From Paenibacillus polymyxa (GTDB lineage: Bacteria > Bacillota > Bacilli > Paenibacillales > Paenibacillaceae): a stretch of 64,000 nt of DNA. Below are positions 24,279 through 51,341 of this stretch, in pieces. The position numbers were made by a program, and so were the translations under genes. The notes beneath the pieces were generated by a model, which did no database searches, had not been told where the DNA came from, and was given only the letters and a program-made list of their open reading frames with translations. The stretch lies in assembly GCF_001719045.1 (NCBI RefSeq), contig NZ_CP015423.1:1054001-1118000 (forward strand), written 5' to 3'. Within the stretch, counting starts at the first letter, position 1, and each line of letters starts with the position of its first letter.

Positions 24279-24346
24279 AAAAAAACAACTTGAGCTGAAT
24301 GAAGCAATAAAACGATGTAGTTGAAGTTGCTTGCTTTTTTGAATAG

Positions 24347-24982
24347 CTATCCAATCTTTTGAACAAATATATATCTTAATTCATATTTTTTCTGTTGTTT
24401 TTCTGCATATATCAGAGTTTCTCTTATGGAACCCGTTTCTAATATATTCAAATCATTAAAATGTCCTTTTAAATCTTCTTCAGTAAAGAAGTGAGCATAT
24501 TTCCCTTCCTTGTATTCATATGTTCCTTCTTCAATTTCCCTACCCACACCATTATTAAAATCACAATTAGAAAAACATGTGAAATACATTACTCCTAATT
24601 CCTTCAAATGCTTCACGCAATTCTGTATCAGTCTTTTTCGGTCTTCTAACAAAAATAAATGTAATAAATCATAACAATATATTCCATCATACCTTTGGCA
24701 TGTACTAAACTCTAATACCGATTCTTGAATAAAATTCGTTTTTAAGTCCCATTCTTTTGCTAGATTTATAGCTGAACTAGATATCTCAATTCCATCAACC
24801 TGAAAATAAGAAGAGAACGCCTTCGTATTTCTTCCATATCCAGCACCAGGAACCAAAATATCATGTACATGATTCTTTTTAAACAAATCTATAGCTTGGG
24901 TTACAGTTTGACTTGGTTCACAACCCCAAATCATCCCTTCTTCAGTAAATCTTTTGTTCCAATAATCCCCCATATGATTCAC
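24347..24982 (-). CDS. SAM-dependent methyltransferase (cassette gene)
   Basis: A 211-residue class I methyltransferase. Motif I reads ILVPGAGYGRNT, motif II IEISSSAI, and RYDGIYCYDLLHLFL covers motif IV. The overall layout resembles the small TPMT/TehB-like enzymes acting on small molecules. It is separated from the next gene (DinB-like) by only 12 bp with no attC, so both may belong to one cassette, the most distal of the array. Substrate unknown. Confidence 0.82.
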   Translation of the reverse strand: MNHMGDYWNKRFTEEGMIWGCEPSQTVTQAIDLFKKNHVHDILVPGAGYGRNTKAFSSYFQVDGIEISSSAINLAKEWDLKTNFIQESVLEFSTCQRYDGIYCYDLLHLFLLEDRKRLIQNCVKHLKELGVMYFTCFSNCDFNNGVGREIEEGTYEYKEGKYAHFFTEEDLKGHFNDLNILETGSIRETLIYAEKQQKKYELRYIFVQKIG

Positions 24983-24994
24983 CCGCCTATATAC

Positions 24995-25450
24995 TCACAT
25001 AGCTTTTCTTTTAAGTTCATCAATCTGTCTGATATGATGTTGATCATGCCAGATAAAATCTCTTAAATATGATATTACAGTAAACTTCCCGTTAGCATAT
25101 TCTTTAGTAAACTTATCGTCTTCAAAACTCTCTATACTCTCCAATATCATGTTACGGTACTGAATAGTCATTTTAATTAATTCTTCTTTCGTTTTTGTTT
25201 TTCCATATTCAATAGCATCCTGATTAAATTGTTCAAAATCCATATGTGTTAATGTCAAAGGTTTATTGTTTAATATCGGATTTATTGCTGCTTCAAAAAA
25301 GTATTTATCCCACAGCAGTATATGACTTACGACATCCTGAACTGACCATTTACCTTCAGCAATCGTTATTTGCCAATCCATTTCACGAATCTCAGAAACA
25401 AAACTGATCCATTCTTTGAACTCCTCTAGTAACCGTGACTTCTCATTCAT
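24995..25450 (-). CDS. DinB-fold protein (cassette gene)
   Basis: A 151-residue four-helix protein of the DinB/DUF1569-like superfamily. The three metal-ligand regions are visible: WSVQDVVSHILLWDKYF (first His), and IWHDQHHIRQIDELK (HxxxH) at the end. Members are thiol- or toxin-handling enzymes. RBS AAAGGAGC-like text precedes ATG at 25450. Confidence 0.8.
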   Translation of the reverse strand: MNEKSRLLEEFKEWISFVSEIREMDWQITIAEGKWSVQDVVSHILLWDKYFFEAAINPILNNKPLTLTHMDFEQFNQDAIEYGKTKTKEELIKMTIQYRNMILESIESFEDDKFTKEYANGKFTVISYLRDFIWHDQHHIRQIDELKRKAM

Positions 25451-25486
25451 GGTATCACGCTCCTTTTTTCAAATTTCATTTATCTA

Positions 25487-25603
25487 GGACAACGTTTCTG
25501 ACTCATGGACCCCAAAGGGGTTGTCTGCTGAAAATCCCTTTTCGAGACTCCTTCTCGCAGGCCTAGGCTCCGTCAGGAGACGCAGTTGAATATATGTTAT
25601 GGG
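25487..25603 (-). repeat. attC-like site, type I
   Basis: Left core GGACAAC at 25487-25493, right core GTTATGG at 25596. Inner arms pair ACCCC/GGGGT and GGCTCC/GGAG. It borders the last cassette. Confidence 0.8.
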
Positions 25604-25622
25604 CTTCCTCTGCCTCTCAGAA

Positions 25623-26072
25623 TCAACGTTCCAAAGCTTTGCTTGCTTCTGTTAATTCATCATTTGCCTCTAAATATTTCAATGTTTTTTCAATATCGTC
25701 GTTGTACATTGTTTTCGTTATAATTAGATGCTTAATATTAAGCCCTGGTGGTTCCATTTCTTTTTTAAAGTGATTTACTAACTTTTGAGGGGTTGTCACC
25801 AAACTCCACCGTTTACTTCCATCCGAAAAAGTAAGGGTCACCTCCACCAAATCAAACTCCTTTGGATCATCATCAAACTTCCATGTTTCTAAATAAGGCA
25901 CTTCTATATTTCCATCAATAAAAAATGCTTTTGATATCCAAACAGCTTTCCTGTGGTTTCCAATGATTCTATACTTGTCCCCATCCTCATTTTTTACAAT
26001 GTATCTATTCCCTCTTGTAAGTGCATGAGCATAAACGCCTATACTCATACAAGTTATGATTGGTTCCTCCAT
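25623..26072 (-). CDS. Orphan cassette protein, paralogue of the one at 28363
   Basis: A 149-residue protein I do not recognise. The start at 26072 (MEEPIITC) is set by GGAAGTG upstream and by alignment with its paralogue; the longer frame to 26147 is translated attC. The first 60 residues look like a small SH3-like barrel (GNRYIVKNEDGDKYRIIGN), the rest alternates strand and helix (TLTFSDGSKRWSLVTTP). Identity to the 28363 product is about 90 percent by eye, so the two cassettes are recent duplicates or independent captures of related cassettes. Confidence 0.75.
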   Translation of the reverse strand: MEEPIITCMSIGVYAHALTRGNRYIVKNEDGDKYRIIGNHRKAVWISKAFFIDGNIEVPYLETWKFDDDPKEFDLVEVTLTFSDGSKRWSLVTTPQKLVNHFKKEMEPPGLNIKHLIITKTMYNDDIEKTLKYLEANDELTEASKALER

Positions 26073-26113
26073 CAATTCACTTCCATGTATCGTATTTAAT
26101 TTACTGAGGTTTC

Positions 26114-26273
26114 GCATAACATTACTGTATTCACAACGTCCCACCAACTCAAGGCTCGTCAGGAGCTGGCTAAAATGTGGTTAGTCGGTGCGGATGTGTA
26201 CGCTGATATTTTGCTGACGCCTTCTCGCGGACTGAGGGTCGAATGGTTCAATGCGCGAAAATAATGTTATCTG
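26114..26273 (-). repeat. attC-like site, type II
   Basis: Left core CATAAC (AAC 26118-26120), right core GTTATC at 26266. The long inner arm pairs CCACCAACT with an AGTCGGTG region. Confidence 0.75.
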
Positions 26274-26296
26274 AAGTTATCAACTTCCTGAAATGC

Positions 26297-26863
26297 TTAC
26301 AAAATGTATTTCTTTAAAATATCTAGTTCGTCTTTCAAATTAGTTTCTATTTTTTCAATCCAATCATTTGGATTTCTAATTGTAGTTGGAAAGCTGCTCT
26401 TATTCTCAAGATAATATTTCAATTGAAGATAACTACTAATCGGAAAATCTTGAGCATACCATTGTTTTCTATATCCTAAAATTCCATGATCCTTTAGTAA
26501 TACTTCCATTGATTGTACAACCTCTGATATGAATTCATTAAAGTTACATTCTTCACTGAACTCTAATTTCCCTGGGTGTGTCTTTATCCCATCTTCATAG
26601 ACAGTTATATTAACTTGCACCTTTTCTTTTGATTTCTTTACAATTTTCCAGTTATGTATAGCTGGTTCCGAATCCCAATCAAAGTGAACAATACTTTTAA
26701 CTTCATCCGCAGGTGTACATTCAGGCAACAACACTTCAATTGCTCTTACTAGGTCAATTAATGGCTCAGAGAGATAGCTTGGAGAAATATAAATTTCCGA
26801 ATTTTCAATTCGAAGATGTATATCTGCCCAACCAATATTACTTAGTGTATAAGTAAATTTCAT
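26297..26863 (-). CDS. Orphan cassette protein
   Basis: A 188-residue protein with no family I recognise. The ATG at 26863 (MKFTYTLSN) has AAGGAG 8 bases upstream. The frame start at 26923 is attC-derived. The sequence alternates strands and amphipathic helices. GWADIHLRIENSEIYISPSYLSEPLIDLVRAIEVLL and a later WYAQDFPI resemble the style of immunity-type proteins seen near polymorphic toxins, but no toxin is adjacent. Function unknown. Confidence 0.7.
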   Translation of the reverse strand: MKFTYTLSNIGWADIHLRIENSEIYISPSYLSEPLIDLVRAIEVLLPECTPADEVKSIVHFDWDSEPAIHNWKIVKKSKEKVQVNITVYEDGIKTHPGKLEFSEECNFNEFISEVVQSMEVLLKDHGILGYRKQWYAQDFPISSYLQLKYYLENKSSFPTTIRNPNDWIEKIETNLKDELDILKKYIL

Positions 26864-26896
26864 GTATATTCTCCTTTTCAATATTACAGTTATTTC

Positions 26897-27058
26897 GGCT
26901 AACGTTTGTGTATTCACGAACATGCGAACCTTAAGACTCTGTAGAAGCTATCCGCTATGTGGTTAAGTTCTCAGACGGTCCACTGAATTCGCTTCTTGGG
27001 TCGCATCTAGCGGATCAAGGAAGCGAAAGCGGCCACAGTGTGAATTACGATGTTAGGT
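26897..27058 (-). repeat. attC-like site, type II
   Basis: Left core GGCTAAC (AAC 26901-26903), right core GTTAGGT at 27052. The two cores are close to the classical RYYYAAC/GTTRRRY consensus. Confidence 0.8.
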
Positions 27059-27100
27059 GGAATGCACTGAAATACTCACATAATTAATTCAATTTTCCCT

Positions 27101-27526
27101 TTAGGGCTCTACTCGAACTAATACCTCTTCCATAGTCATTTCTGGAGTTATAATTATCGTTTTGTTTAGGTTCCGACTTAAATCTTTTAGGAAGTTCATG
27201 AGTAAATCTATTTTTTTCTCTGAGTCTATCTGTATTGGTGAAATATCAAATTCAATAACGCTCCCTTCATAAAAATGCCCACAAATATCAATTTCACTAT
27301 ATTCAATAGTTATCCCAATACTTGCTTCTTTTTTTATTCTTAACAATTCAGTAATATCCCTAATTCTAGTTATTACCCCATCTATAGTCACTCGATAATT
27401 AATTTCATTACTTTCCAAATAATCAAAAATCAAAGCCCATACTTGGATCTCTGTATCCAATATATAAATGTCCCTTAGACTTCCATCTTTAAAGAATACT
27501 TCATTTAATACTTCATCGTAATTCAT
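27101..27526 (-). CDS. Orphan cassette protein
   Basis: A 141-residue acidic protein not recognised. N-terminal MNYDEVLNEVFFKDGSLRDIYI and a later YEGSVIEFDISPIQID suggest an alpha/beta fold, with a helical C-terminal third. AGGAGGCC-like text precedes the ATG. Style is that of a contact-dependent immunity protein, which is only an impression. Confidence 0.65.
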   Translation of the reverse strand: MNYDEVLNEVFFKDGSLRDIYILDTEIQVWALIFDYLESNEINYRVTIDGVITRIRDITELLRIKKEASIGITIEYSEIDICGHFYEGSVIEFDISPIQIDSEKKIDLLMNFLKDLSRNLNKTIIITPEMTMEEVLVRVEP

Positions 27527-27553
27527 TCAGGCCTCCTAAACACTTCGCATTTC

Positions 27554-27702
27554 ACCTAACGTTCTTATATCTACAAGCCCTCTCAGATTACGTTTCTGTA
27601 TTCATGAACCCCTAAGGGGTTGTCTGCTGAAATTCCTCTCCGAAATCCACCTCGCAGACCCAGACTCCGTAAGGAGCCGCTGCTTGAATATGATGTTAGG
27701 CG
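27554..27702 (-). repeat. Composite attC-like site
   Basis: It carries two left ends: CACCTAACGTTC at 27554 and, 30 bases on, ACGTTTCTGTATTCATG at 27590, then one right end GTTAGGCG at 27695. It looks like a type I site with a second partial left arm fused to it. Confidence 0.75.
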
Positions 27703-27755
27703 ATACCCTTGATCTCTTTTGAGTTCCTTAAAATAATCCCTATTACTACTGTATT

Positions 27756-28253
27756 TTAACTTCTCAAATCGACAACCATCGTGATTGATGAATCAACTTT
27801 CCCAACTTCTTTAAATCCGAATCTCTCGTAGAGTTTCATTGCCGCTGCATTGCTCGGATCAACACTGAGGGATAATTTTTTTATATTCCTCTTCCTAGCT
27901 TCTTTAAATAATTCATCCATTAAGGCCATTCCGATTTTTCTTCCCCTGTATTCTTTTAACAAAGCCATTCCTAGTTCGGGTACATCATTATCAATAAATC
28001 CAAATCCCTTATTATCCTCGTTAAAATATCGAACTGTTATTGATCCGACGGGTTCACCCTCATGGTTCATTGCTATAAATCCAAAATCCCCATCTCTTCC
28101 CCAACCTTCAATATACTTTGATATATAAGGGTCTTTTATTATCGCTTTATCGAATGGCTCTTGACCTTCTGGGACAAATAATGATTCATATAACATCTCC
28201 CATAAAAAAAACACATCATCTTCTATTATTGGTCGGATTCTGTATTGCATCAT
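27756..28253 (-). CDS. GNAT N-acetyltransferase (cassette gene)
   Basis: A 165-residue acetyltransferase. The acetyl-CoA motif is GMALLKEYRGRKIGMALMDEL (R-x-x-G-x-G/A pattern) and the C-terminal SVDPSNAAAMKLYERFGFKEVG is a signature of the RimI-like branch. The N-terminus YRIRPIIEDDVFFLWEMLY is standard. GAGGTAAC lies upstream; either of two adjacent ATGs (28253 or 28250) may be used. Substrate unknown; related cassettes often modify antibiotics or peptides. Confidence 0.88.
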   Translation of the reverse strand: MMQYRIRPIIEDDVFFLWEMLYESLFVPEGQEPFDKAIIKDPYISKYIEGWGRDGDFGFIAMNHEGEPVGSITVRYFNEDNKGFGFIDNDVPELGMALLKEYRGRKIGMALMDELFKEARKRNIKKLSLSVDPSNAAAMKLYERFGFKEVGKVDSSITMVVDLRS

Positions 28254-28288
28254 TGAAGTTACCTCATTTCTAGATTCTCAAAGGTTTC

Positions 28289-28341
28289 GCATAACGTTTC
28301 TTATTTTCCATAAAAGCCGTAGCTTGAATATTATGTTATGC
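28289..28341 (-). repeat. Minimal attC-like site
   Basis: Only 53 bp. Left core GCATAACG (AAC 28293-28295), right core GTTATGC at 28335. The internal arms are absent apart from an AAAGCC loop. Confidence 0.65.
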
Positions 28342-28362
28342 AATTCCTCCATCCTCTCCGAA

Positions 28363-28812
28363 TCAACGTTCCAAAGATTGGCTTGCTTCTGTTAATTCAT
28401 CATTGGCCTCTAAATATTTCAATGTTTTTTCAATATCGTCGTGGTCCATTGTTTTCGTTATAATAAGATGTTTAATATTAAATCCTGGTGGTTCCATTTC
28501 TTTTTTAAAGTGATTTACTAATTTTTGAGGGGTTGTCACCAAACTCCATCGTTCACTTCCATCCGAAAAAGTAAGGGTCACCTCCACCAAATCAAACTCC
28601 TTTGGATCATCATCAAACTTCCATCTTTCTAAAAAAGGCACTTCTATATTTCCTTCAATAAAATGAGCTTTTGATATCCAAACTGCTTTTCCATGGTTTC
28701 CAATAATTCTATACTTGTCCCCATCTTCTTTTTTTACGATGTATTTATTGCCCCTTGTAAGTGCATGAGCATAAACGCCTATACTTATACAAGTTATGAT
28801 TGGTCCCTCCAT
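28363..28812 (-). CDS. Orphan cassette protein, paralogue of the one at 25623
   Basis: A 149-residue near-copy of the product encoded at 25623-26072, with the same SH3-like start (IGVYAHALTRGNKYIVKKEDG) and the same C-terminus ANDELTEASQSLER. GGAAGTG precedes ATG 28812. Differences are concentrated at a few surface positions (for example RKAVWISKAFF against GKAVWISKAHF). The two flanking attC sites differ, so the copies are separate cassettes rather than a tandem gene duplication. Function unknown. Confidence 0.75.
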   Translation of the reverse strand: MEGPIITCISIGVYAHALTRGNKYIVKKEDGDKYRIIGNHGKAVWISKAHFIEGNIEVPFLERWKFDDDPKEFDLVEVTLTFSDGSERWSLVTTPQKLVNHFKKEMEPPGFNIKHLIITKTMDHDDIEKTLKYLEANDELTEASQSLER

Positions 28813-28851
28813 CAATTCACTTCCATACCGTATTTAATTTACTGAGGTTTC

Positions 28852-28969
28852 GCATAACGTTCCTGTATTCATGAACCCCAAGGGGGGTGTCTGCTGAGAT
28901 TCCTCTTCGAAATCGACCTATCAGACCAAGGCTTCGTCAGTAGCCGCTGCTTGAATATGATGTTAAGCG
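28852..28969 (-). repeat. attC-like site, type I
   Basis: Left core GCATAAC (AAC 28856-28858), right core GTTAAGC at 28962. The TAA stop of the next gene (28963-28965) lies in the right core. Confidence 0.8.
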
Positions 28970-29592
28970 ATGTCATTGCCTTCCATGATTATTCTGACAC
29001 ATTTGTTCCAGTCTTTATCATCTGTATTGATTTCTCTTGTAGGCACTTTCGATTGTTTGGCTTGTTCTCTTAACATATTTTGTGTTTCCAATAATTCGTT
29101 TACTGACATTTTTACTACTTCAGGCTTGTTTATCCATTCACTTGGATTTCTGCTTATAATTCTTTCTTCAGCCATTTCAGGAGAATTTGTTAGCAATATG
29201 CACTCTGCACCTAGAGATACGAGTTTTTCTTCAATTGTCATGACTTCAATGTGGTCTGAGTTGGAGAAAGCTACCCTGTGATTAAGGTGGAATCTTTCTA
29301 AAACGTAAAATAGTCCTCTGGCCCTTCTTGATGCAGGCCCTAACTGTACAGCCCATTCATTGAGCTTTGTTAACATTTCTGTTCTTTCCTTCAGTAAGGT
29401 TAAATGCTCTTCTTGAGATAAACTTAAAAACTTCCCATGCTTGTTATTCAATATTTGTGTGTAATGTTCACCAAGAATAACTACACTTCTCTCTGCCGAT
29501 TCATCCTGTGATTGGTACTGCTTAATAGCCCTCAATACCGATGTCTTACCAGCATTAGAAAATCCCTCAAGAATTACTCCTTTGATATGCAT
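28963..29592 (-). CDS. P-loop kinase-like protein (cassette gene)
   Basis: A 209-residue nucleotide-binding protein. The Walker A motif GFSNAGKTS lies at residues 10-18, following VILE, as in thymidylate-kinase and adenylate-kinase relatives. A lid-like basic region (RRARGLFYVLERFH) and a central RIISRNPSEWI follow. It may be a small-molecule or nucleotide kinase. The stop codon TAA sits inside the neighbouring attC core. AGAGGG precedes ATG 29592. Exact substrate unknown. Confidence 0.78.
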   Translation of the reverse strand: MHIKGVILEGFSNAGKTSVLRAIKQYQSQDESAERSVVILGEHYTQILNNKHGKFLSLSQEEHLTLLKERTEMLTKLNEWAVQLGPASRRARGLFYVLERFHLNHRVAFSNSDHIEVMTIEEKLVSLGAECILLTNSPEMAEERIISRNPSEWINKPEVVKMSVNELLETQNMLREQAKQSKVPTREINTDDKDWNKCVRIIMEGNDIA

Positions 29593-29624
29593 GCTTTTCC
29601 CTCTCTATACCCAGCAATGACTTC

Positions 29625-29748
29625 GCTTAACATTCCTGAAATCATGAACCCCTCAAGAGGTTGTCTTTGTCTGCCTGATCAAACCTCCCCGGAATGCCTC
29701 TTGCAGACCAAGGCCGTCAGGCTTGCAGCAATAATAGTTTGTTATGAG
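29625..29748 (-). repeat. attC-like site, type I variant
   Basis: Left core GCTTAAC (AAC 29629-29631), right core GTTATGA at 29741. Inner arms are ACCCCT/AGAGGT and GCAGACC. Confidence 0.7.
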
Positions 29749-29772
29749 AATTTACATTGAGTTACCTACACA

Positions 29773-30054
29773 TTATCTACTCAAATCTTCTAAAAGCCCT
29801 TTGATATTCTTTCTAAAATCTTCAACCTTCATTTTGTTTCCATAATGGTCTAATATGTCTTTAAATATCCCACTCTCGACACATAACTCAAAATCATTCA
29901 GTTGGTCAATTAATTCATTAATGACTTCACCTGATTCCATTTGTTTATAGAGCTCTGTATATTCTTTCAACATTTTTATATCTGAATCATAATTGCTATA
30001 AAACATTGCGAAAAAATGCTCTAATGTAACGTACTCTTCATCCTTTGTATTCAA
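29773..30054 (-). CDS. Small acidic orphan protein (cassette gene)
   Basis: A 93-residue, mostly helical acidic protein starting at a TTG (MNTKDEEYVTLEHFF) with GAGGTG 7 bases upstream. FFAMFYSNYDSDIKMLKEY recalls CdiI-type immunity proteins that contain an aromatic-rich first helix, but the match is weak and no toxin is nearby. Confidence 0.6.
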   Translation of the reverse strand: MNTKDEEYVTLEHFFAMFYSNYDSDIKMLKEYTELYKQMESGEVINELIDQLNDFELCVESGIFKDILDHYGNKMKVEDFRKNIKGLLEDLSR

Positions 30055-30122
30055 TGTTTGTCACCTCATAAAATGTAGTGTAACTCCTATTTGTCTTGAT
30101 TTTTAATGTCCTTCGCAATTTC

Positions 30123-30324
30123 TCATAACGTTTCCGCATTCATGAACCCCAAAGGGGTTGTCTGCTTGAAATGCCTCCCCAAAATCCTCCTCGGTTAGGC
30201 AGTAAAGGGTTATCCGGCGAATATACTCTCCTGCTAATGAATCTACTTCTTCGAAACCGCTACTTTAAACTTCGGTCCGGACCAAGAAGTCATAGCCACA
30301 CAGCGTTGAATATATTGTTATAGG
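30123..30324 (-). repeat. Long attC-like site
   Basis: About 200 bp. Left core CATAAC (AAC 30127-30129), right core GTTATAGG at 30317. The left third matches type I; a 70-bp extra stretch around 30210-30280 lengthens the arm. Confidence 0.72.
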
Positions 30325-30346
30325 ATAGGGACGCCTACTGATATAC

Positions 30347-30934
30347 TTACTGATATTCTTCAAATTTATATTTTGTTAATTTATTTATTTCAATTACTTG
30401 TTCTTTATTAAAATAGCCCATTAGGCAACCATGATCTAAAATTGAAATATACAATTTCATGGATTGTTCAGTCTTTATTAGTTCGTTAAATTTCTTGAAT
30501 ATCTCCATATCCAACCAATCATCATCTACTTTCATTTCCCATCTGATAAGTTCATTCATATATTCAAAAGAGACCCATGCAGTACCATTCTGAATATCTA
30601 CGTAATCCGTTATATTATTTAAATCAAGTTTTGTCATATTCTCTAATCGTATTATTATTCTTGCATAGTCTCCATGGTCCTCAATACATTCAGTATCTAA
30701 ATACCAAATTTCCTCAGATACATTTATAAATTCACCATTCACTTCAACTTCTCCACCTAAATTAAGTAGTAGCAAGTTGTAGGGATCTTCTTCATATTCA
30801 TTTCTCGAAAATTCTTCCAAAAGTAATTCTTTCTTTAAATCTGCACTCATGAAGATGCCCAATTCAGAAAGTTTGTTTAGTTGATCTTCAAATATTATTT
30901 TCTTCTTCTTAAATAAACCAAACAACTTAAACAC
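30347..30934 (-). CDS. Orphan cassette protein
   Basis: A 195-residue protein not recognised. A GTG start is given; a TTG at 30925 has a better-spaced AAGGTG. The basic N-terminus (LFGLFKKKKI) is followed by an acidic strand-rich middle (NLGGEVEVNGEFINVSEEIWYLDTECIEDHGDYARI). Function unknown; it has the look of toxin-immunity-type cassette proteins. Confidence 0.65.
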   Translation of the reverse strand: MFKLFGLFKKKKIIFEDQLNKLSELGIFMSADLKKELLLEEFSRNEYEEDPYNLLLLNLGGEVEVNGEFINVSEEIWYLDTECIEDHGDYARIIIRLENMTKLDLNNITDYVDIQNGTAWVSFEYMNELIRWEMKVDDDWLDMEIFKKFNELIKTEQSMKLYISILDHGCLMGYFNKEQVIEINKLTKYKFEEYQ

Positions 30935-30961
30935 CTTCTTTTTATGGTTTGCGTCCCTTTT

Positions 30962-31077
30962 CTATAACGCTTGTATTCATGAGCTCCGTCAGGGGTTGTC
31001 TGCTGAAATGCCTTCTCGAAATCTATCTCGCAGACTTAGGCACCGTAAAAGTCGCTGCTTGAATATGATGTTAAGAG
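30962..31077 (-). repeat. attC-like site, type I
   Basis: Left core TATAAC (AAC 30966-30968), right core GTTAAG at 31070. It ends the cassette carrying the decayed gene at 31113. Confidence 0.78.
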
Positions 31078-31112
31078 TGATGTCTTTGCCTTCTACAAAT
31101 CAGTGTACATTA

Positions 31113-31556: not shown

Positions 31557-31591
31557 TGGTTTCTCCTTGTTGATTATCATATATAGATTTC

Positions 31592-31758
31592 ACTTAACGT
31601 TGATGTATTCACAAACCCTCACCGACTCAAAGGCCGAAGGCCTAGCGTGATGCGCTTAGTCGGTACAGGCTTGTCCTATCAGTCACTTCCTCTCCTAATG
31701 CTTTTTGGACCAAGGGTCGGCTTGCCTCGGCCCTTAGCGTTGAATGTAATGTTAGGTG
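31592..31758 (-). repeat. attC-like site, type II
   Basis: Left core CACTTAAC (AAC 31596-31598), right core GTTAGGTG at 31751. A long arm pairs CACCGACT with CTTAGTCGGT. Confidence 0.8.
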
Positions 31759-31785
31759 AAGCATTGTAACTTCTTTGAATCTGCT

Positions 31786-40645: not shown

Positions 40646-40664
40646 CTGTTTCTCTCTTCTTTGA

Positions 40665-43575: not shown

Positions 43576-43615
43576 TTTGTACCTCTTTCCTTTTATTTAC
43601 TCTAGCAAGGGTTGC

Positions 43616-43785: not shown

Positions 43786-43912
43786 ATTGACCGGTCCCAC
43801 TTCTTCAAATAGAGACAGGACCTCGGCCCACATGATATTTATCTAATTTCCGATTTACCCACCGATCATTTACTGATTCAGTACACAAGGGTCGTTTGAA
43901 TTTTCCCATATA

Positions 43913-44389: not shown

Positions 44390-44548
44390 TTATTAACCCC
44401 TATTCATTTAAATTTGAATTCCTTGTTCCTATTTTTCTACAAAACATGTTTGAGTTGTACAAAAAGAAAATCCTCTAAATAATTTTGTACATCAGGCAAC
44501 AGGACGTTGCAAACGAATTACTTTCAAAGTTTTTGGGGCCGATCTTTC

Positions 44549-44707
44549 AGATAACGTTTGTGTATCTACGAACCCTCACCACCTTAAGGACCGTAGGTCC
44601 GGCCGCGATGCGGTTAGGTGGTGCAGGGTTGTCTGGTGAATAGGCTTCCTCGAAATCCCTCTTGCAGACCAAGGCCGTCAGGCCGCAGCGTATATACGGT
44701 GTTAACT
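44549..44707 (-). repeat. attC-like site, type II
   Basis: Left core AGATAAC (AAC 44553-44555), CCACCTTAAGGACCGTAGG arm, right core GTTAACTG at 44701. It contains the stop codon of the next gene. Confidence 0.8.
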
Positions 44708-45361
44708 GATGTTGCGGCCTCCTTCGAAATAATCAATACTCTGGTCTTTAAATAGTTCTTTCAATTCCCTTGATGTTTCACTAATAAAGATCTTAATAAT
44801 TTCTGCTTTAAAATAGATAGGTGCTATATGAGGTTCATTCTTTAGATCTTGCAGCCATCTCACCTTACTATCCCTATACTGATTGACTTCAAGCTGCGTA
44901 ATGTAAGGATTTATTGTATAGCCCTTGGCTTTTAAGAGTTTTGTAAACAGTTTTTCAGTACTTTCCATTGATCTTAAGAGATCAAATTCTACTTGGCTAA
45001 CTTCAAGGTTATATGTCTTTCTAATATCATTCTTTTCGCCTTTGTAGTTTTTCTCAAAATCGAAATAGACGGTATCTGTCCACCTTAAATCTGTATAAAT
45101 ATGTGAAAAGTAACCTATAACAAAGTCCTTCCATTCTGGCCCCGCTTGCTTCAGTAAATATTCCTTGCACTTCTCCATGATCAATTCCTTGGCTGGTAAT
45201 TTATCGTTATGTACGAGATGAGTCACACCTTTTTCTTCCCTGGATACCTTCCCTCTCATATGAATCGCATCCGGAGCAATACTGCCTAATAAAAAATTGG
45301 GTGAGGGGTCATTAATAGAAAGGTTTTCTGAGATTGCAAAGTGTACCATAGGCCAAGGCAA
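44702..45361 (-). CDS. Zinc-dependent phospholipase C-like protein (cassette gene)
   Basis: A 219-residue protein. GGAGG lies 7 bases before a TTG at 45361, giving a start LPWPMVHFAISENL rather than the earlier ATG. MVHFAI, GSIAPDAIHMR, THLVHND and GYFSHIYTDLRW supply the histidine/aspartate set expected of the zinc-dependent phospholipase C superfamily. Function unknown beyond the fold. The stop TAA lies in the attC core. Confidence 0.78.
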   Translation of the reverse strand: MPWPMVHFAISENLSINDPSPNFLLGSIAPDAIHMRGKVSREEKGVTHLVHNDKLPAKELIMEKCKEYLLKQAGPEWKDFVIGYFSHIYTDLRWTDTVYFDFEKNYKGEKNDIRKTYNLEVSQVEFDLLRSMESTEKLFTKLLKAKGYTINPYITQLEVNQYRDSKVRWLQDLKNEPHIAPIYFKAEIIKIFISETSRELKELFKDQSIDYFEGGRNIS

Positions 45362-45411
45362 ATTAATTCCTCCTTTGATATTTCCTTCAATCATGAACTT
45401 GCCGGAATTTC

Positions 45412-45582
45412 AATTAACGTTCCCGCATTCACGACGTTCAAGCAGCTTAAGGACCGTAGGTCCGGGTGGCTCTGCCACTTAGCTGGTTGAATGTGTCCGG
45501 TGAATTGACCTCCCTGAAATGCCCCTTCCGGACCATGGGTCGAGCTTGTCTCGGCCCGCAGCGTTGAATGCGATGTTAGGCG
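45412..45582 (-). repeat. attC-like site, type II
   Basis: Left core AATTAAC (AAC 45416-45418), CTTAAGGACCGTAGGTCC arm, right core GTTAGGCG at 45575. Confidence 0.82.
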
Positions 45583-45608
45583 ATGCTCTCGACTTCTTCA
45601 AAATACCT

Positions 45609-46553
45609 TCAATTTATATTGTTAATTATATAATTCAGTGCCTTCAAATGTGTTTTTGATAAACCGTTTTTGTTCTTTAGTTTTTCAATTGTCTCACTCT
45701 CACTATGCATCGGTCTTTGAAGCTCACTTCTAGCGCTCACATAGTCTCTACTAATATAAAAATTACATGTTACAATACTTGCATTATTCGCTAGAACATA
45801 ATCAATTATCTTTAACAATTTTTCAGGATTCCTTGTTATTGTTTTAAAAGAATCAGTAAAGAAGATTGGATAACCTTCGCTTATTGCTTTAAGCACATTT
45901 GACAAATAAGGGTCAATATTAGGATCCATACCACTCAAGACTACTGTATTCTTCTTAAAATATTGGTCAATTCTTAATAAATTATCAGATTTCTGTTTCG
46001 AATTCTTAACTATGCTTTTGTTAGTCTTGTCATCAATAATCGAATATTTCTTATTTTGAAAAACGATTTTTCCTAATTCTTTTATAATGCCCCATGCTAG
46101 TGGATATGAAGACATTAGCTTACCGTAAACATCATTATCAGTAATAACACTTTTTGAGACTGTACTAATATCAATACAACAGAAATACTTTATTGCATCA
46201 GAGGTAAACTTTCTGATATCTCGTTCAGGAATAATTGTCTTCTGCAGCCCCATTAACTTTGCGGCTTCATTAGTGCTCGCAAGATCCTCTATTAGACTAT
46301 TTCTAATAGTCAATACAACAAGACATCGAATTTCTATGTCTTCAGGAGGCTGATAATAATGTGCTTCCTCAACACTCGTAACTAACAACGCTCTTCTATT
46401 ATCACAATTATTCCAGTTATTAAATAAAGACAAGAGCCGGGTCTTTATATCAAGTCCTACTCTTTCAATGATGTCTTTATTCATTTCATATTGTTCAAAT
46501 CGTGGGAACAATACATTCTGTAGATAGTTATCAATAACTTCCATGTAATTCAC
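45609..46553 (-). CDS. Large orphan protein (cassette gene)
   Basis: A 314-residue protein not recognised, one of the two largest cassette genes. MEVIDNYLQNVLFPRF opens it. The segment AISEGYPIFFTDSFKTITRN followed by IIDYVLANNASIVTCNFYISRDYV has the spacing and secondary structure of the second half of a serine-recombinase catalytic domain, but the catalytic Ser region is unclear. It could equally be an unrelated alpha/beta protein. ATG at 46553 is in good context; no neighbour helps. Confidence 0.6.
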   Translation of the reverse strand: MNYMEVIDNYLQNVLFPRFEQYEMNKDIIERVGLDIKTRLLSLFNNWNNCDNRRALLVTSVEEAHYYQPPEDIEIRCLVVLTIRNSLIEDLASTNEAAKLMGLQKTIIPERDIRKFTSDAIKYFCCIDISTVSKSVITDNDVYGKLMSSYPLAWGIIKELGKIVFQNKKYSIIDDKTNKSIVKNSKQKSDNLLRIDQYFKKNTVVLSGMDPNIDPYLSNVLKAISEGYPIFFTDSFKTITRNPEKLLKIIDYVLANNASIVTCNFYISRDYVSARSELQRPMHSESETIEKLKNKNGLSKTHLKALNYIINNIN

Positions 46554-46581
46554 TCTTTCAGTTAATATTTTTGAGAGTTTC

Positions 46582-46698
46582 GCCTAACATTCCTGTATTC
46601 ATGAACCCCGAAGGGTTGTCTGCTGAAATGCTTCCCTGAAATCCTTTCTCGCAAACCAAGGCTCCAAAGGAGCCGCTGCTTGAATACTATGTTAGGCG
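46582..46698 (-). repeat. attC-like site, type I
   Basis: Left core CGCCTAAC (AAC 46586-46588), GAACCCCGAAGGGTTG arm, GGCTCCAAAGGAGCC, right core GTTAGGCG at 46691. Confidence 0.85.
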
Positions 46699-46864
46699 AT
46701 ACTAACGGCATCTTCGAATAAATTTACCAGTTCTTCGTAAGTCTTTTTATTCTTTCTTTGACAAAATTCACAAGTACCTTGATTCAAATCCGATGATAAT
46801 TTCAGTTAGCTTGCGGAGAATAGCCTTTTATTTGTTTTTTGATCGTTTCTATAAAAACCTTCAA
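46692..46864 (-). pseudogene. Frameshifted small gene with zinc-knuckle N-terminus of RES/HEPN type
   Basis: A TTG at 46864, preceded by GGAG, opens MKVFIETIKKQIKGYSPQA, then a single lost base shifts to LKLSSDLNQGTCEFCQRKNK and continues to a TAA in the attC core. Restoring one base gives exactly 58 codons. TCEFCQRKN and YEELVNLFEDAV match the N-terminal zinc-binding part that precedes RES-domain toxins. The toxin domain itself is absent. Confidence 0.55.
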
Positions 46865-46871
46865 CAATTTC

Positions 46872-46922
46872 TCCTAACGCTCTTTAACAACACGGACTCG
46901 AGCGAGTGCGGTTCTAATAATG
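46872..46922 (-). repeat. Possible short attC-like site
   Basis: TCCTAACG (AAC 46876-46878) is followed by GACTCGAGCGAGTGC; the right core is degenerate (GGTTCTAATAA). Confidence 0.4.
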
Positions 46923-47915
46923 CCATTCTGACGTCCCATAATGTTCCATGGACATTCTAATTAATTCATTCCAAAAATCTTCCAAATCACTAAATAGACG
47001 GTTTGTGTTTACTAATTCAATCAATTGTGAAATATAACTACTAAAGCTCAGTTCATCTGCATTGAAGGACTTCATAAATCTCAATTTATCTATTTCGCTA
47101 TCAGTAATACCGAGTTTTTTGACTTCTTCTACCGTTTCGAAAACATGACTAACCCAAAGCAGGGAATAGAACGATTTATACATACTCCTCCCTTTGATAT
47201 TGGATTTTATTAATATTTCTCTGTAAATTTTCCTGATTGCGTCGAATATATATGCCGAATCAGGTAACTCATCTATTTCTTTTCTGACATACTTCGAAGT
47301 TTGAATATATCCACCCTCTACATCAATTACATTAGAAGGTCGGTATATAGCTCTGTCTCTTACATAACAAAGCTTTTCATAAAGCCCTTTAATACTTTCA
47401 TTTGGTTTATTTTCATCAGCAAATATAAAGTTGTTATAAAGTATTCTAAATACCTCATCCAATTTTTCACTTTCTTCTCTTAAACAATCACAATATTCTT
47501 TAACGTCAGTATGTGTTATCAGTGTTGAAAGGTCTTGTTCAAGTAATTTAAACTCATTCCATACATTTGGTAATTCGGAGGGATCTGATAAATCATTAAA
47601 ATTGACTCCAAGATTTACAATACCGTTCGAGCATAACCTTTTGGGAACTTTTAAGTTAAAACGCTCATCTAATAACATTAACGAAATAAATAAATGATAC
47701 ACCGAGTAGTAAGTCAAAACTGCCCTACTAATTCTTAATCCCCCAGCACTCTCTACATCTTTAACTGATTCAAGTGCCCTTAATTCTGATAAACCAATAA
47801 GAATTTTATGAAATGAAAGTGCAGAACATGAACACAAATAAACCATATTGGTGATATTAGTTCTATCCAAATAATTGAATTTCCCACTTTGTATATATGT
47901 AAGTTCTTCTTTCAT
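46914..47915 (-). CDS. Orphan cassette protein, possibly HEPN-like
   Basis: A 333-residue helical protein, the largest cassette gene. AVLTYYSVYHLFISLMLLDE resembles the aromatic-rich first helices of HEPN proteins, and LCYVRDRAIYRPSNVID resembles their basic active loop, but the R-x4-6-H motif is not seen. The neighbouring remnant at 46692 carries the N-terminal part of a HEPN/RES protein, so a former link between them is possible. Function unknown. Confidence 0.6.
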   Translation of the reverse strand: MKEELTYIQSGKFNYLDRTNITNMVYLCSCSALSFHKILIGLSELRALESVKDVESAGGLRISRAVLTYYSVYHLFISLMLLDERFNLKVPKRLCSNGIVNLGVNFNDLSDPSELPNVWNEFKLLEQDLSTLITHTDVKEYCDCLREESEKLDEVFRILYNNFIFADENKPNESIKGLYEKLCYVRDRAIYRPSNVIDVEGGYIQTSKYVRKEIDELPDSAYIFDAIRKIYREILIKSNIKGRSMYKSFYSLLWVSHVFETVEEVKKLGITDSEIDKLRFMKSFNADELSFSSYISQLIELVNTNRLFSDLEDFWNELIRMSMEHYGTSEWHY

Positions 47916-48021
47916 TTACCTGTCTCCTTATATAACGTTTTGGTCTTCTAAAATCTATCTAACAAATCTCACAGCTTTTATACCAGCCATCTTCTCATTT
48001 TTATAGTTTTTCAAGAGTTTC

Positions 48022-48117
48022 GCCTAACGTTCCTGTATTCACGACCCAGCATATGCTGGGTGTCCGGCGCATGCCGGGCCAAGGACGAATGTCCGCAGCG
48101 TGAATATTATGTTATGT
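48022..48117 (-). repeat. attC-like site, type III
   Basis: Left core CGCCTAAC (AAC 48026-48028), GACCCAGCATATGCTGGG hairpin, TCCGGCGCATGCCGGG arm, right core GTTATGTG at 48111. Confidence 0.82.
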
Positions 48118-48138
48118 GATGTCTGCTTCTTCTTCGAA

Positions 48139-48636
48139 CTACTTAGACAGCTTGTTTGATTTCTTTGCCATGCTTTTAAACTCTTCATATTTCTCTTTAG
48201 CAGCTTTAATTTTACTTTCCACTACATAAGGAGCATCATCTGAAAAACTGGGTAGTTTCTCATTTATGTAATCGTATAATGATTTTTTCTCAGCAGTCGT
48301 CGGAATTATCGGCGCAACAGGTATAGGTAGTGGCTTATCTTCTACTTCTATTCCTTCATGCAAATCAGCCATCCCAAAAGAAAGAAAATTATGAATAGCT
48401 CTTTTTCTATCTTCTTCTGTCTGTTTATAATTTCCGTCCGAATCTAAATGGAATCTATCAAATTCCACCATAAGTAGTTTATGCGGCTTCCTGTCTTTAT
48501 TCCTGTAATATAAGATCACTTCAAGTACTTCCTCACCTGCTAATTGAGGAACAAATTTATGCTTATGATCTTTAGGTCGGGCGATCTTTATAACTTTGCC
48601 TGCACGAGATACAAATAAATATCTGCTTTGAATCAT
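48139..48636 (-). CDS. Orphan cassette protein
   Basis: A 165-residue protein. N-terminal VIKIARPKDHKHKFVPQLAG and VILYYRNKDRKPHKLLMVEFDRFHLD suggest a small beta-barrel, then a proline-rich linker (PLPIPVAPIIPTT) and a C-terminal Lys-rich helix. Not recognised. Confidence 0.65.
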   Translation of the reverse strand: MIQSRYLFVSRAGKVIKIARPKDHKHKFVPQLAGEEVLEVILYYRNKDRKPHKLLMVEFDRFHLDSDGNYKQTEEDRKRAIHNFLSFGMADLHEGIEVEDKPLPIPVAPIIPTTAEKKSLYDYINEKLPSFSDDAPYVVESKIKAAKEKYEEFKSMAKKSNKLSK

Positions 48637-48672
48637 CTATCTCACTCTTTCTCTCTTATTTAAGCTGATTTC

Positions 48673-48788
48673 ACATAACGTTTCTGTATTCATGAACCCC
48701 GTAGGGGTTGTCTGCTGAAATGCCTCTCCGAAATCCTTCCCGCAGACCAAGGCTCCAAAGGAGCCGCTGCTTGAATATTATGTTATAC
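48673..48788 (-). repeat. attC-like site, type I
   Basis: Left core CACATAAC (AAC 48677-48679), GAACCCCGTAGGGGTTG, GGCTCCAAAGGAGCC, right core GTTATACG at 48782. Confidence 0.86.
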
Positions 48789-48836
48789 GATGGAATCTTC
48801 TACGATTAACCAACATTCATTCTTGATTCTAATCTG

Positions 48837-49040
48837 TCATTGTTCTGCTATATGTTCCAATAAATCTCCTGGCTGACAACCTAAAGCCGCACATAATTTA
48901 TCAATCACTTCTAACGATACATATTCGTTTGTATTGAGTTTCGCCATTGTAGCAGACGAAATACCCGTCATTTTCAATAAATCCTGCTTCTTAATCTCCC
49001 TGTCGATCAATAATTTTTGAAAAGGCTTATAACTAATCAT
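48837..49040 (-). CDS. Small XRE-family repressor (module B)
   Basis: A 67-residue Cro/C1-type protein: IKKQDLLKMTGISSATMAKLN is the helix-turn-helix and LEVIDKLCAALGCQPGDLLEHI the rest. It is divergent from the gene at 49212 and equals module A at 38723 in arrangement, though the two repressors differ in sequence. It lies in its own cassette between sites at 48673 and 49534. Confidence 0.84.
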   Translation of the reverse strand: MISYKPFQKLLIDREIKKQDLLKMTGISSATMAKLNTNEYVSLEVIDKLCAALGCQPGDLLEHIAEQ

Positions 49041-49070
49041 CTGATATTCCTTTCACACATCAAGTGAATT

Positions 49071-49153
49071 TTTCTTTAATTATATGAAAGTATATTTTCT
49101 TTATCAAAAACATCTTCAACATGTATTGACTTGATTATTTGACATGATAAAAT
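49071..49153 (+). promoter_or_regulatory. Divergent control region of module B
   Basis: A TTGACT (49126) and TAAAAT (49148) pair with a 16-base spacer drives the plus-strand gene. Two dyads, TTTCTTTAATTATATGAAA (49071) and GAAAGTATATTTTC (49086), are operator candidates for the repressor. Confidence 0.5.
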
Positions 49154-49211
49154 TATATTTAATAAGTTGAACTTTTATTCATAAAATCAAATACATTGGA
49201 TGGTGTTCAAA

Positions 49212-49499
49212 ATGCATAATTCTTTAGAAGTCTTACTTGATTCACTGATTCAGACTCGAATTGAATCTTTATATGGCAAGCTTATCAAAAACAATCCCAG
49301 CTATAACCAGTTCTCATCCGAACGGAATCTCTACTTCAAGCAGTTACATGAAGGAGTACCGGAGAATATACAGAAGACCCTATTTCTTTACGATGATGCT
49401 GAGCTTTCTGTTCAAGCTATTTTAGAACGTGAAATTTATTTGCAAGGTTTTAAGGACGCTCTTCACCTGCATAACGAATTACATATATCTTTAAATTGA
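49212..49499 (+). CDS. 95-residue helical protein (module B)
   Basis: Partner of the module B repressor. The ATG at 49212 (MHNSLEVLLDSL) is preferred over 49200, as it aligns with the paralogue at 39101 and has GGATGGTG upstream. SYNQFSSERNLYF and LFLYDDAELSVQAILEREIY are shared with module A. Same length (95 residues) and same divergent arrangement. Function unknown. Confidence 0.72.
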   Translation: MHNSLEVLLDSLIQTRIESLYGKLIKNNPSYNQFSSERNLYFKQLHEGVPENIQKTLFLYDDAELSVQAILEREIYLQGFKDALHLHNELHISLN

Positions 49500-49517
49500 G
49501 AGCCTTCTGGCTCTTTT
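49498..49517 (+). terminator. Terminator of module B
   Basis: GAGAGCC TTCT GGCTCTTTTT follows the stop codon. Confidence 0.72.
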
Positions 49518-49533
49518 TCATTTGGATTCTGTC

Positions 49534-49700
49534 GTATAACGTTGTTGTATTCCTGAACCCGAGAGGCTTAAGGTCCGTCAGGACCGGGTGGCTCCGCCAC
49601 TTAGCCTCGCAGAGTTGTCTGCCTGACTCCACTTCACTGGAAAACCTCGGGCAGACCAAGGTTCGGCGTAGTCATTCACAGCGGGAATACGTTGTTATAC
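49534..49700 (-). repeat. attC-like site, type II
   Basis: Left core CGTATAAC (AAC 49538-49540), CTTAAGGTCCGTCAGGACC arm, right core GTTATAC at 49694. Its left flank ATTCTGTCG repeats that of the site at 39428, also beside a module. Confidence 0.82.
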
Positions 49701-49791
49701 AAAGTCACTTAATTCACCGAATTTACTTTCAAAATCCTAAAATCAAAACACTATCCTTATTTGATATCTCTTAAAATCGTTCTTCGAGACC

Positions 49792-50268
49792 TTATTCCTT
49801 GATTAAATTCTTTGTCATTATTATATCTCTACCAAAATCTTCAGACTCTATTATTTCTAATGCATGGTATCCAAGCTTCTCATAAAATCCTTGTGCCGTA
49901 ATGCTACTAGGAAGCTTAAGTGATGTAGTCCCGGAATCAAGAGCTATTCGTTCAATAAAATCAATCAGAACTCTACCAATTCCCTTATTGTGGTGGTGAA
50001 TATCAATAAAGACTGTGTAAATGGTATCTTGATCAAGGCTTGCAGTACCGATTATCTTATTACCTTCAACTACAACATATACTTTTCTGATTTTTGATAT
50101 CGAAGATATATATTCTGAGGTGAAGATTCTACTCATATTCTTTATTATCTTTTCTGGATAATCTTTGATGTTTACGTTTATTAAATTTTCTCTGATAATG
50201 CTTGATACCATTCCGGAATCATCGTCAATAAAATCCCGAATCAATAAATTAGTATTCAATAATCTCAC
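49792..50268 (-). CDS. GNAT N-acetyltransferase (first cassette gene)
   Basis: A 158-residue acetyltransferase, the cassette nearest the recombinase and so possibly the last captured. Cofactor motif IHHHNKGIGRVLIDFIER, then LPSSITAQGFYEKLGYHAL. VVEGNKIIGTASLD precedes it. AGGTGAG precedes the start. Substrate unknown. Confidence 0.86.
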   Translation of the reverse strand: MRLLNTNLLIRDFIDDDSGMVSSIIRENLINVNIKDYPEKIIKNMSRIFTSEYISSISKIRKVYVVVEGNKIIGTASLDQDTIYTVFIDIHHHNKGIGRVLIDFIERIALDSGTTSLKLPSSITAQGFYEKLGYHALEIIESEDFGRDIIMTKNLIKE

Positions 50269-50304
50269 CTCTTATTAGAATAGAATTAAATGTTTGGGTG
50301 GTTT

Positions 50305-50404
50305 CGTATTAACGTCTTATTTACGAACTTCAGAAAAAATGTTCTCTTCGTCATATTCACGAACTTCGTGAATCCTGCACTTTGTTCCTGATTTCCGCAC
50401 TTTC
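50305..50404 (-). other. Candidate attI-like site
   Basis: TATTAACGTC at 50307-50316 is the same core found at cassette borders, but no full attC follows. Downstream are a second CTTATTTACGAACTTC and a perfect hairpin ATTCACGAACTTCGTGAAT (50375-50393). It lies just before the recombinase gene's 3' end, where the array begins. Confidence 0.5.
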
Positions 50405-50410
50405 TGCGTT

Positions 50411-51341
50411 TCAATCCTCCTGCCCGCTCATCCGATCCAACGGACTTTGAATCCGCACAATGTCCCGCCTGCTCACATGTGTATACCGCTCCGTCGTTCG
50501 CACACTCTGATGCCCTAGCAGTTCCTGAATATAGCGAAGATCAATCCCATTCTCCAGCAAGTGGGTCGCAAAGGAATGCCTTAGCGAATGGATACTCACC
50601 TGTTTGCGAATGTCCGCTTCAGCCAGCGCTTTTTCAAACACTTTCTGCGCTGAACGTTCCGTCAGGTGGCGGCCTTCCCTCTGCCCTGGAAACAGCCAGT
50701 CTTCTGGCCGCTCCCCCCTATATACTGCTCGACCACCGTAAAAGCCGCTTCGGAGAGCAGCGTTTGCCGTTCCTTCCTGCCCTTTCCCTGACGAACTTTC
50801 AGTACTTTCCGTTCACGGTCGCAGTCTTCAAGACGCAACCTCACCACTTCGCTTACCCGCAGCCCGGATGTATACGTCAGGTACAGAATAGCCTTATGCT
50901 TTGGATTTTTCACTACTTTCAACAGACGCATGACCTCATTCAGGGACAGCACATCCGGTAGTTTACTCTCCTTTTTCGGACGAACATAGGCGGAGGATTT
51001 GGGCTGCTTTAGCACATGGCGAAAATAAAATTTCAACGCACTGATCGCTTGGTTAACATAAGCGTGCGAAAGGCCTTTTTCGAGCAGCGCCAACGCATAT
51101 TTTTGCACCGTCGCATCATTTATGCTTGCTTCGGTCCCTTGCAATCTTGCAAAAAAGCGTTCCGTTTGCGATATGTATGCTTTAATCGTCTTGCTGCTGT
51201 AGCCCCTTGCCACCAATGCATCGCGCATTTCTTGCCGCTGATCCGGGTTCCATTCGCCTCGTTCCGAAGAAGAGGGAACCGCATTAGCCTGCGTATCCCG
51301 TCGATTGTTTTTTCATCCCGATAAAGTAGGTTTATCTTCAT
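50411..51341 (-). pseudogene. Tyrosine recombinase (Xer/XerA-like, integron-integrase-like), two frameshifts
   Basis: Reading from the ATG at 51341 (GGAGG 8 bases upstream), MKINLLYRDEK is lost at a six-base A run (plus 51308-51313) where one more base would join the main frame MRDALVARGYSSKTIKAYIS. That frame then breaks at a six-base G run (50713-50718), where one more base would lead to the C-terminal frame. The repaired product is 310 residues. All catalytic residues are present across the parts: R in TSGLRVSE, K in [16 protein letters not shown] and the nucleophile in TERYTH. The end [13 protein letters not shown] resembles XerA-type enzymes. No insertion of the IntI-specific kind lies between the patches. 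Confidence 0.82.

Follow-up and report, generated by a model that had tools for sequence, protein, structure and literature searches.

Sedentary chromosomal integrons, of which the super-integron of Vibrio is an example, have small cassettes, most of them in one orientation, structured sites whose cores are AAC/GTT, an attI at one end, crossover at GTT and differing cassettes at a fixed locus. All of these characters recur in a stretch of the Paenibacillus polymyxa chromosome, the window (64,000 nucleotides (nt), bases 1,054,001–1,118,000 of the 5.76-Mb single-contig genome G000), where short genes, mainly on the minus strand, are interleaved with structured repeats between 24.3 and 50.3 kb. 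This region is, with a probability of about 0.87 and as judged from its sequence, a chromosomal integron-like platform in which a tyrosine recombinase would join folded attC-like cassette sites with attI at GTT. It differs from sedentary chromosomal integrons in that its recombinase lacks the I2 insertion, falls outside the sampled clade of I2-bearing integron integrases (IntI), has an N-terminal domain and is co-oriented with the array, and in that its sites rarely fit the R-box consensus RYYYAAC/GTTRRRY.

An earlier note on this DNA described integrons as mainly Gram-negative, but they are not wholly unknown in Firmicutes. This phylum already stands among the integron-bearing phyla in the available part of one source (PMC8618304), and the part of the IntegronFinder 2.0 paper at hand credits it with one complete integron, that of Limnochorda pilosa, and ‘a few CALIN’, clusters of attC sites lacking an integron integrase (PMC9024848). 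Among the titles and abstracts listed for Paenibacillus, Firmicutes or Bacillota from the open-licence literature, none deals with a platform of this kind. Two papers, in their accessible portions, treat I2 as a requirement for the activity of integrons and as a marker by which to detect them (PMC9668308, PMC8138268). In the first of these the archaeal IntIs are stated to have the IntI-specific domain, which the IntegronFinder screen requires (PMC9668308), and a further source, again as partly available, describes the Treponema integrase as co-oriented with its array and transcribed towards attI (PMC3607928).

The sites were delimited with a covariance model, R1. RNAalifold gave zero pairs on the mixed-length site alignment A1, and the 110-nt class was therefore modelled alone, from 45 of 173 sites picked by a length of 107–113 and a motif score of at least 30; most of the 45 are of the genus and five are window sites. 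R1 finds 28 attC-like sites in the window, from 25486 to 49701 and all on the minus strand (26 at E≤0.001, one at 0.006 and one at 0.39), which agrees with the some 28 repeat-separated gene units counted in the earlier note. At least five of the 28 are damaged (25489, 28292, 33634, 35870 and 38588). Listed from the attI side, with R1 as the source for all except half site 16, they are:

49537..49697, minus strand: attC-like site 29, nearest attI
48676..48785, minus strand: attC-like site 28, 110-nt class, best R1 match in the window
48025..48114, minus strand: attC-like site 27, 90-nt class
46585..46694, minus strand: attC-like site 26
45415..45578, minus strand: attC-like site 25, long class
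44552..44704, minus strand: attC-like site 24, long class
43619..43781, minus strand: attC-like site 23, long class
42919..43098, minus strand: attC-like site 22, long class
42188..42297, minus strand: attC-like site 21
41192..41354, minus strand: attC-like site 20, long class
40552..40641, minus strand: attC-like site 19, 90-nt class, folding most strongly as a single strand among three folded
39431..39546, minus strand: attC-like site 18
38588..38690, minus strand: attC-like site 17, R' half missing
36327..36345, minus strand: half site 16, R' half only, beside a TetR/short-chain dehydrogenase (SDR) block; no R1 match
35870..35962, minus strand: attC-like site 15, R' half degraded
34222..34338, minus strand: attC-like site 14, weak (E=0.39)
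33634..33744, minus strand: attC-like site 13, R'' half degraded
33099..33208, minus strand: attC-like site 12
32364..32476, minus strand: attC-like site 11
31595..31754, minus strand: attC-like site 10, long class
30965..31073, minus strand: attC-like site 9
30126..30320, minus strand: attC-like site 8, long class
29628..29744, minus strand: attC-like site 7
28855..28965, minus strand: attC-like site 6
28292..28338, minus strand: attC-like site 5, interior deleted (E=0.006)
27588..27698, minus strand: attC-like site 4
26900..27055, minus strand: attC-like site 3, long class
26117..26269, minus strand: attC-like site 2, long class
25489..25600, minus strand: attC-like site 1, last site, R' core degenerate

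Cassettes are bounded, as in integrons, by imperfect inverted repeats with AAC/GTT cores and a foldable middle. A motif finder applied to 21 recombinase loci (the window and 20 loci from 19 relatives, 20 genomes altogether) gave 173 forward sites and one reverse, against one in a single mononucleotide shuffle per locus; 173 of the 174 are co-oriented with the recombinase. (A previous finder, run with other settings, returned 162 sites forward and three against.) Read in cassette direction the site has the form TCnnnTAAC-AT..-ATTCA, then hairpins, then TGAAT-AC..-AAC-GTTAnnnGA. The 173 fall into lengths of up to 93 nt (33), 94–120 nt (71), 121–170 nt (57) and longer (12). The spacer between core and inner box is about 4 nt on the R'' side and about 7 nt on the R' side, and this inequality gives the site a direction. 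The TAAC/GTTA cores, the inner TATTCA/TGAATA box and the internal hairpins are as first described; the classical 7-nt R boxes seldom fit, RYYYAAC matching 37 of the 173 sites, GTTRRRY 41 and both together nine. Within the inner box, pairs 2, 3, 5 and 7 are complementary above every one of 5000 permutations and pair 6 above all but five. In the 110-nt class 95.2% of the cells of the proposed structure pair, and six pairs have both sides changed vs 1.6 in shuffles. The folds of the top and bottom strands are similar in the three sites folded.

The central test concerns the cassette ends. If joining is at GTT, the bases after GTTA belong to the next cassette and those before TAAC to the ending cassette, and the two ends of one cassette should match, because they are partners in the free circle; no such agreement is required between the halves of a single site. 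The window gives a within-cassette match of 5.05 of 8 positions (n=22), vs 3.28 within a site (n=25) and 3.17 elsewhere (578 pairs), and none of 20000 permutations is as high as the within-cassette value. (The 25 sites used exclude damaged 13, 15, 16 and 17, and include 1, 9 and 24, which are slightly out of register.) Over the 21 loci the first four positions give 3.28 of 4 for the same cassette (n=149) and 2.15 for the same site (n=173), with a permuted mean of 2.03 and a maximum of 2.28 in 2000; the 149 cassettes are not all independent, since relatives share some, and the window alone already gives the result. Positions 4 and 5 belong to the finder motif and prove little by themselves, but positions 1–3 match in 77–80% of the 149 cassettes, vs 38–49% of the 173 sites and 32–48% on permutation. 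After a 2-nt mismatch the same-cassette match resumes at positions 8–14 in the 21 loci, and the repeat in the circle would therefore be about 14 nt. The crossover accordingly appears to lie within AACGTTA, with cassettes exchanged at GTT.

Beside the recombinase there is a recognisable attI, the point at which cassettes would be inserted:

50310..50379, minus strand: attI, conserved block after the recombinase stop ending GTTA (plus-strand TAAC at 50310–50313), from clade alignments

Its core was aligned in 16 of 16 loci, five of clade A and eleven of clade B (the other five of the 21 lie outside both clades or have no readable stop), and is conserved up to GTTA, after which the sequences diverge. 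Identity is 0.96 and 0.89 over the 30 nt before the core and 0.39 and 0.40 over the 30 nt after it; one of the 16 loci reads ATTA, not GTTA. An attI with a GTT insertion point beside the integrase gene, and a crossover that would fall in GTT, are both integron features. The earlier note's reading, a large integron-like array that carries attC-like sites and begins at a recombinase, is upheld by this boundary together with the same-cassette complementarity and, as described below, the differing cassettes at the same locus and the R1 sites in all 36 genomes of the genus examined.

A tyrosine recombinase heads the array in the window and in the 20 loci from 19 relatives. That of the window is a remnant:

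50411..51341, minus strand: tyrosine recombinase remnant, XerA/IntI-like, no I2 insertion, from model matches and comparison with L044

The open reading frame (ORF) 50662–51228 matches Phage_integrase, and both it and 50411–50641 match the XerA and integron-integrase models. In a close relative (L043) the recombinase has its nearest matches in Paenibacillus proteins, including those of P. maysiensis and P. polymyxa. Most intact proteins of the family have some 370–390 residues, an N-terminal domain of about 95 being followed by an Xer-like body. I2, about 40 residues in integron integrases, is absent in all 73 family recombinases examined (from 73 of 80 loci): the stretch from QGKG to SFATH is 73–79 residues in each of them vs 117 in one reference IntI, and a second measure gives 65–68 in the 72 measurable proteins vs 106. 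With the NCBI IntI model, whose cut-off is 265 bits, four of four family proteins score 199–207 and four of four IntI 394–509; NF040815 (XerA, archaeal) outscores the IntI model in four of four family members, in one of them over its own cut-off. In a tree built from well-filled columns (82 rows) the I2-bearing IntI (24 rows) are supported at 100/99, Xer (five rows) at 100/100 and the family (53 rows), moderately, at 92/84, and the family stands outside the I2-bearing clade. IntI sampling in this tree is narrow (gammaproteobacteria, IntI1 and one spirochaete family), and the rows omitted were four of 17 spirochaete IntI, six of the 17 remaining IntI and 15 of the 68 of the family; with its five Xer rows and spirochaete IntI it replaced a first tree that had two very long Xer branches.

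The first 70 or so residues of the recombinase weakly resemble the N-terminal domains of HARP, XPB and UvsW (4o66, 2fwr, 1rif), a resemblance that falls short of established homology, and a PDB sequence search with the domain gave nothing useful. The domain also has a counterpart in IntIs of the spirochaete family of Brucepastera, of which 17 (L172–L188) of the 20 over the cut-off were read. All 17 have I2, with 107 residues from GKG to H..RH, and 12 have the W..P-motif N-terminal domain common to the I2-less family; hhalign gives a probability of 98.6 between the latter and the N-terminal domain of an eight-member profile of these IntIs. The two groups have the N-terminal domain in common, whereas only the Brucepastera-family IntIs have I2 and score over the IntI cut-off.

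The locus has been compared in seven relatives. G004, G006, G007, G032, G033 and G035 match both array flanks and G014 the recombinase side only (85–95% identity). The recombinase-side match spans the next gene (segment 51400–53399); farther out it is found only in G014, G033 and, for one segment, G007. In G033 the flanks match and the recombinase match is absent. The matching locus holds different cassettes in these relatives, as the earlier note had looked for (the same sites, in variable arrays, at the same place), and seven of the 13 cassettes nearest attI match none of the seven. The window's cassettes at about 30.3–36 kb recur in the same order in G033 and G014, apart from an exception near 33.2 kb. 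Two cassettes match G014 at 99% identity, the flank of G014 matching at 83–93%, and stand in reversed order there.

The recombinase and the sites also tend to occur together more widely. Of 59 genomes, 30 have a related recombinase (E≤1e-20): 22 of the 36 that belong to the genus and eight of the 23 that do not. The search of other genomes with a covariance model, a check that had been proposed, gave R1 sites in 44 of the 59, namely 36 of 36 of the genus, on which R1 was mostly trained, and 8 of 23 outside. Outside the genus six genomes have both, two the recombinase only, two sites only and 13 neither (one-sided Fisher p 0.006). Among 80 named loci, taken from a list of at least 572 and some from the same genomes as the 21-locus set, 30 are of Paenibacillaceae (Paenibacillus, Saccharibacillus, Cohnella and Gorillibacterium); 25 of these have motif sites on the recombinase strand, none has them on the other, and four of the five site-less ones have less than 0.8 kb left behind the recombinase. 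The motif finder gives a site in four of the other 50. With a structure-only finder these 50 have 54 sites in 199,661 bases behind the recombinase vs six in 379,741 before it (at least one in 27 loci, at least four in five), and the same-cassette match is 3.88 of 5 (n=24), the same-site match 2.68 (n=53), the permuted value 2.38 and the maximum of 5000 permutations 3.13. The clearest outside arrays are in Brucepastera (L126, six sites), Altarchaeum (L115) and metagenome-assembled genomes (MAGs) of Peptococcaceae (L094) and Clostridia (L099); two Atribacteria loci (L119, L131) have one or two sites. Spirochaete, clostridial, Atribacteria and archaeal sequences therefore have similar sites behind recombinases of this family. 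A search of plasmid DNA gave one short match, and no recombinase relative at 60% identity or more was present among the plasmid proteins listed (the first 5000 records) or in phage proteins (1679 records); one near-full-length relative is on a Chryseobacterium plasmid.

The proposed mechanism is that the tyrosine recombinase would recognise folded, imperfectly palindromic attC-like sites on small circular cassettes and also the fixed attI behind its own gene, joining them at the core GTT. Cassettes would enter beside the recombinase and so pile up in one orientation. Comparison of the DNA alone shows the anatomy, a crossover placed in AACGTTA, attI, varying cassettes at a fixed locus and the linkage of site and recombinase; that this recombinase performs the joining is probable, and it may act, as IntI does, on a single folded strand. 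It is suggested that the N-terminal domain, rather than I2, helps to hold the folded site. The array would then work like an integron and, strictly, is not one. As I2 and the R-box consensus both fail, it is here named an integron-like platform with a distinct recombinase lineage.

Transcription of the integrase towards attI and the direction of the cassettes are shared with the ‘reverse’ integrons of Treponema, as far as the available text describes them (PMC3607928); the comparison with Treponema-type IntI rests on the Brucepastera-family proteins and not on that of T. denticola, which is absent from the best 120 matches to the Treponema family member. With archaeal integrons, in the portion of the source at hand, the platform shares structured sites and an attI directly downstream of the integrase (PMC9668308). 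It differs from them in that the Altarchaeum recombinase (L115) is without the IntI-specific domain; the string ‘altarchae’ does not occur in the main text of that source as available.

Several observations weigh against the proposed platform or against a uniform picture of it. The window recombinase is broken: compared with L044 it misses about 205 bp near the start, by which most of the N-terminal domain is deleted, and it has a 1-nt gap in the body. The recombinase earlier noticed at the array start is therefore present, but broken, running towards the array and of a lineage without I2; the array should now be frozen in this strain, unless another copy acts in trans. In the inner box pair 1 is unpaired and pair 4 no better than chance. 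For the 110-nt class slid structures reach similar double-change counts, and 64 of 500 shuffles attain the number of pair types. Outside the Paenibacillaceae, L086 has four sites with reversed spacers, three L100 sites and the last of L094 look like chance, and many loci are on MAG contigs of putative taxonomic origin. Nevertheless neither of the outcomes named beforehand as refuting, lack of a conserved fold or scattered repeats free of cassettes, was seen, genomes with only 2–4 sites and the choice of strand falling outside that check.

Three other explanations have been considered. Xer acts at a single dif site, and dif sites are short. It is unlikely, though conceivable, that the sites here are similarly ordinary double-stranded ones (possibly cruciform) instead of folded single strands. 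The recombinase is like XerA and Xer in the length and fold of its catalytic part, but its gene heads cassette arrays and has the extra N-terminal domain; and the sites differ from dif in being mainly 70–200 nt long, in the conservation of their inner boxes, in their unequal spacers and in having a single polarity. The matching of the two ends of a cassette is in keeping with one crossover, at GTT.

Much more improbable is that a classical I2-bearing IntI built the array and was later lost, leaving a CALIN beside an unrelated recombinase. The report of Firmicutes CALIN, as given in the part of the paper available (PMC9024848), would fit with this, as would the broken state of the window recombinase and a second array at 4.10 Mb with none of the genome's four recombinase matches nearby. 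However, in many species the array begins at a member of this recombinase family, with attI directly at the stop codon of the recombinase gene. No classical IntI over the cut-off was found in G000 or 12 further genomes, nor any in 75 genus genomes, a search that gave no signal anywhere, its own controls included; its check is therefore the spirochaete family of Brucepastera, where 20 of 60 genomes have an IntI that this model scores above the cut-off. The view of the repeats as a dispersed family (small hairpin elements or structured RNA) that simply lies between genes can be dismissed: the 110-nt copies average 84% identity per column, as in many repeat families, and sites also occur in genomes without a recombinase match at E≤1e-20, but Rfam gives zero family matches at gathering scores, and same-cassette complementarity and the attI boundary, besides near-uniform orientation and other cassettes at one locus, reject it.

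With a platform that combines the GTT signature, attI and attC-like sites and yet is without I2, the I2 rule becomes testable: either I2 is unneeded or this lineage solves the folded-DNA problem in another way. The odds are about even that bacteria and archaea have an ancient second line of integron recombinases, one that handles folded sites without I2, aided by an N-terminal branched-DNA-binding domain; GTT capture would then predate IntI as now defined, I2 would be a later addition on the IntI branch, and surveys that require I2 would have missed the lineage. With its place beside IntI in the tree and its occurrence in several phyla, the family could inform integron origins. As all 36 genomes of the genus that were searched have sites, a Gram-positive group may possess an uncounted reservoir of mobile genes, phage-defence genes among them.

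The cassettes mainly hold one gene in one direction, as in integrons. Of 141 cassettes the longest ATG-started ORF is forward in 115 and reverse in 16, with none of 60 amino acids (aa) in ten. The single prevailing direction that had been noted in the window holds, most ORFs being on the minus strand and 37170–37919, 39101–39388 and 49200–49499 on the plus. Stop codons inside the site cores, also noted, occur for the ORFs ending at 28963, 41352 and 44702 and not as a general rule. A consensus scan for a cassette-driving promoter gave five vs 4.1 expected, chance level. The claimed difference in base composition from both flanks stands on the left, where G+C is 0.43–0.50 vs 0.32–0.40 in the array, and is weaker on the right because the flank there has 0.39–0.46. 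The cassette features, from Pfam scans, are:

24347..50268, minus strand: cassette genes
38723..39388, no strand assigned: cassette pairing an HTH_26 regulator with a divergent 95-aa protein (match to DUF6809 at 26.9 bits, cut-off 27)
48837..49499, no strand assigned: similarly built HTH_26 cassette; 99-aa protein without Pfam match

Pfam identifies GNAT acetyltransferases (27756, 34895, 35396, 43913, 49792), NUDIX (38162, 43144) and DinB (24995, 42344) proteins, methyltransferases (24347, 39606) and, below the cut-off, a zinc-phospholipase match (44702); 17 of 35 scanned proteins have no match at E≤0.001. The gene at 41352–42140 is nucleotidyltransferase-like, with a weak AadA_C match (23.4 bits, cut-off 22.2) and a weak PADLOC match to PDC-S09. 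At 36345–38160, between two half sites, there is a TetR regulator with an oppositely directed SDR, at a G+C of about 0.40; the block is also in G006, G014 and G033.

The HTH_26 cassettes with their 95–99 aa proteins are possibly toxin–antitoxin or array-stabilising pairs. Related copies of that at 38723–39388 are at the locus in seven of seven relatives (two in G032), and the 48837–49499 cassette is in three. The second, smaller array of G000, about 3 Mb away (L169, G000:C1:4095000-4114000, 6559–13898), has six sites at E≤0.01, all on one strand, and its cargo between sites is a Lamassu-type pair (LmuA, LmuB) and Mrr-like and weak HNH-like nuclease genes. It holds two relatives of the window HTH cassettes, one 96% identical over 741 nt, and cassettes therefore seem to move between the two arrays. 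Within the window one cassette is duplicated, 550 nt at 92% identity, at 25586–26133 and 28324–28871.

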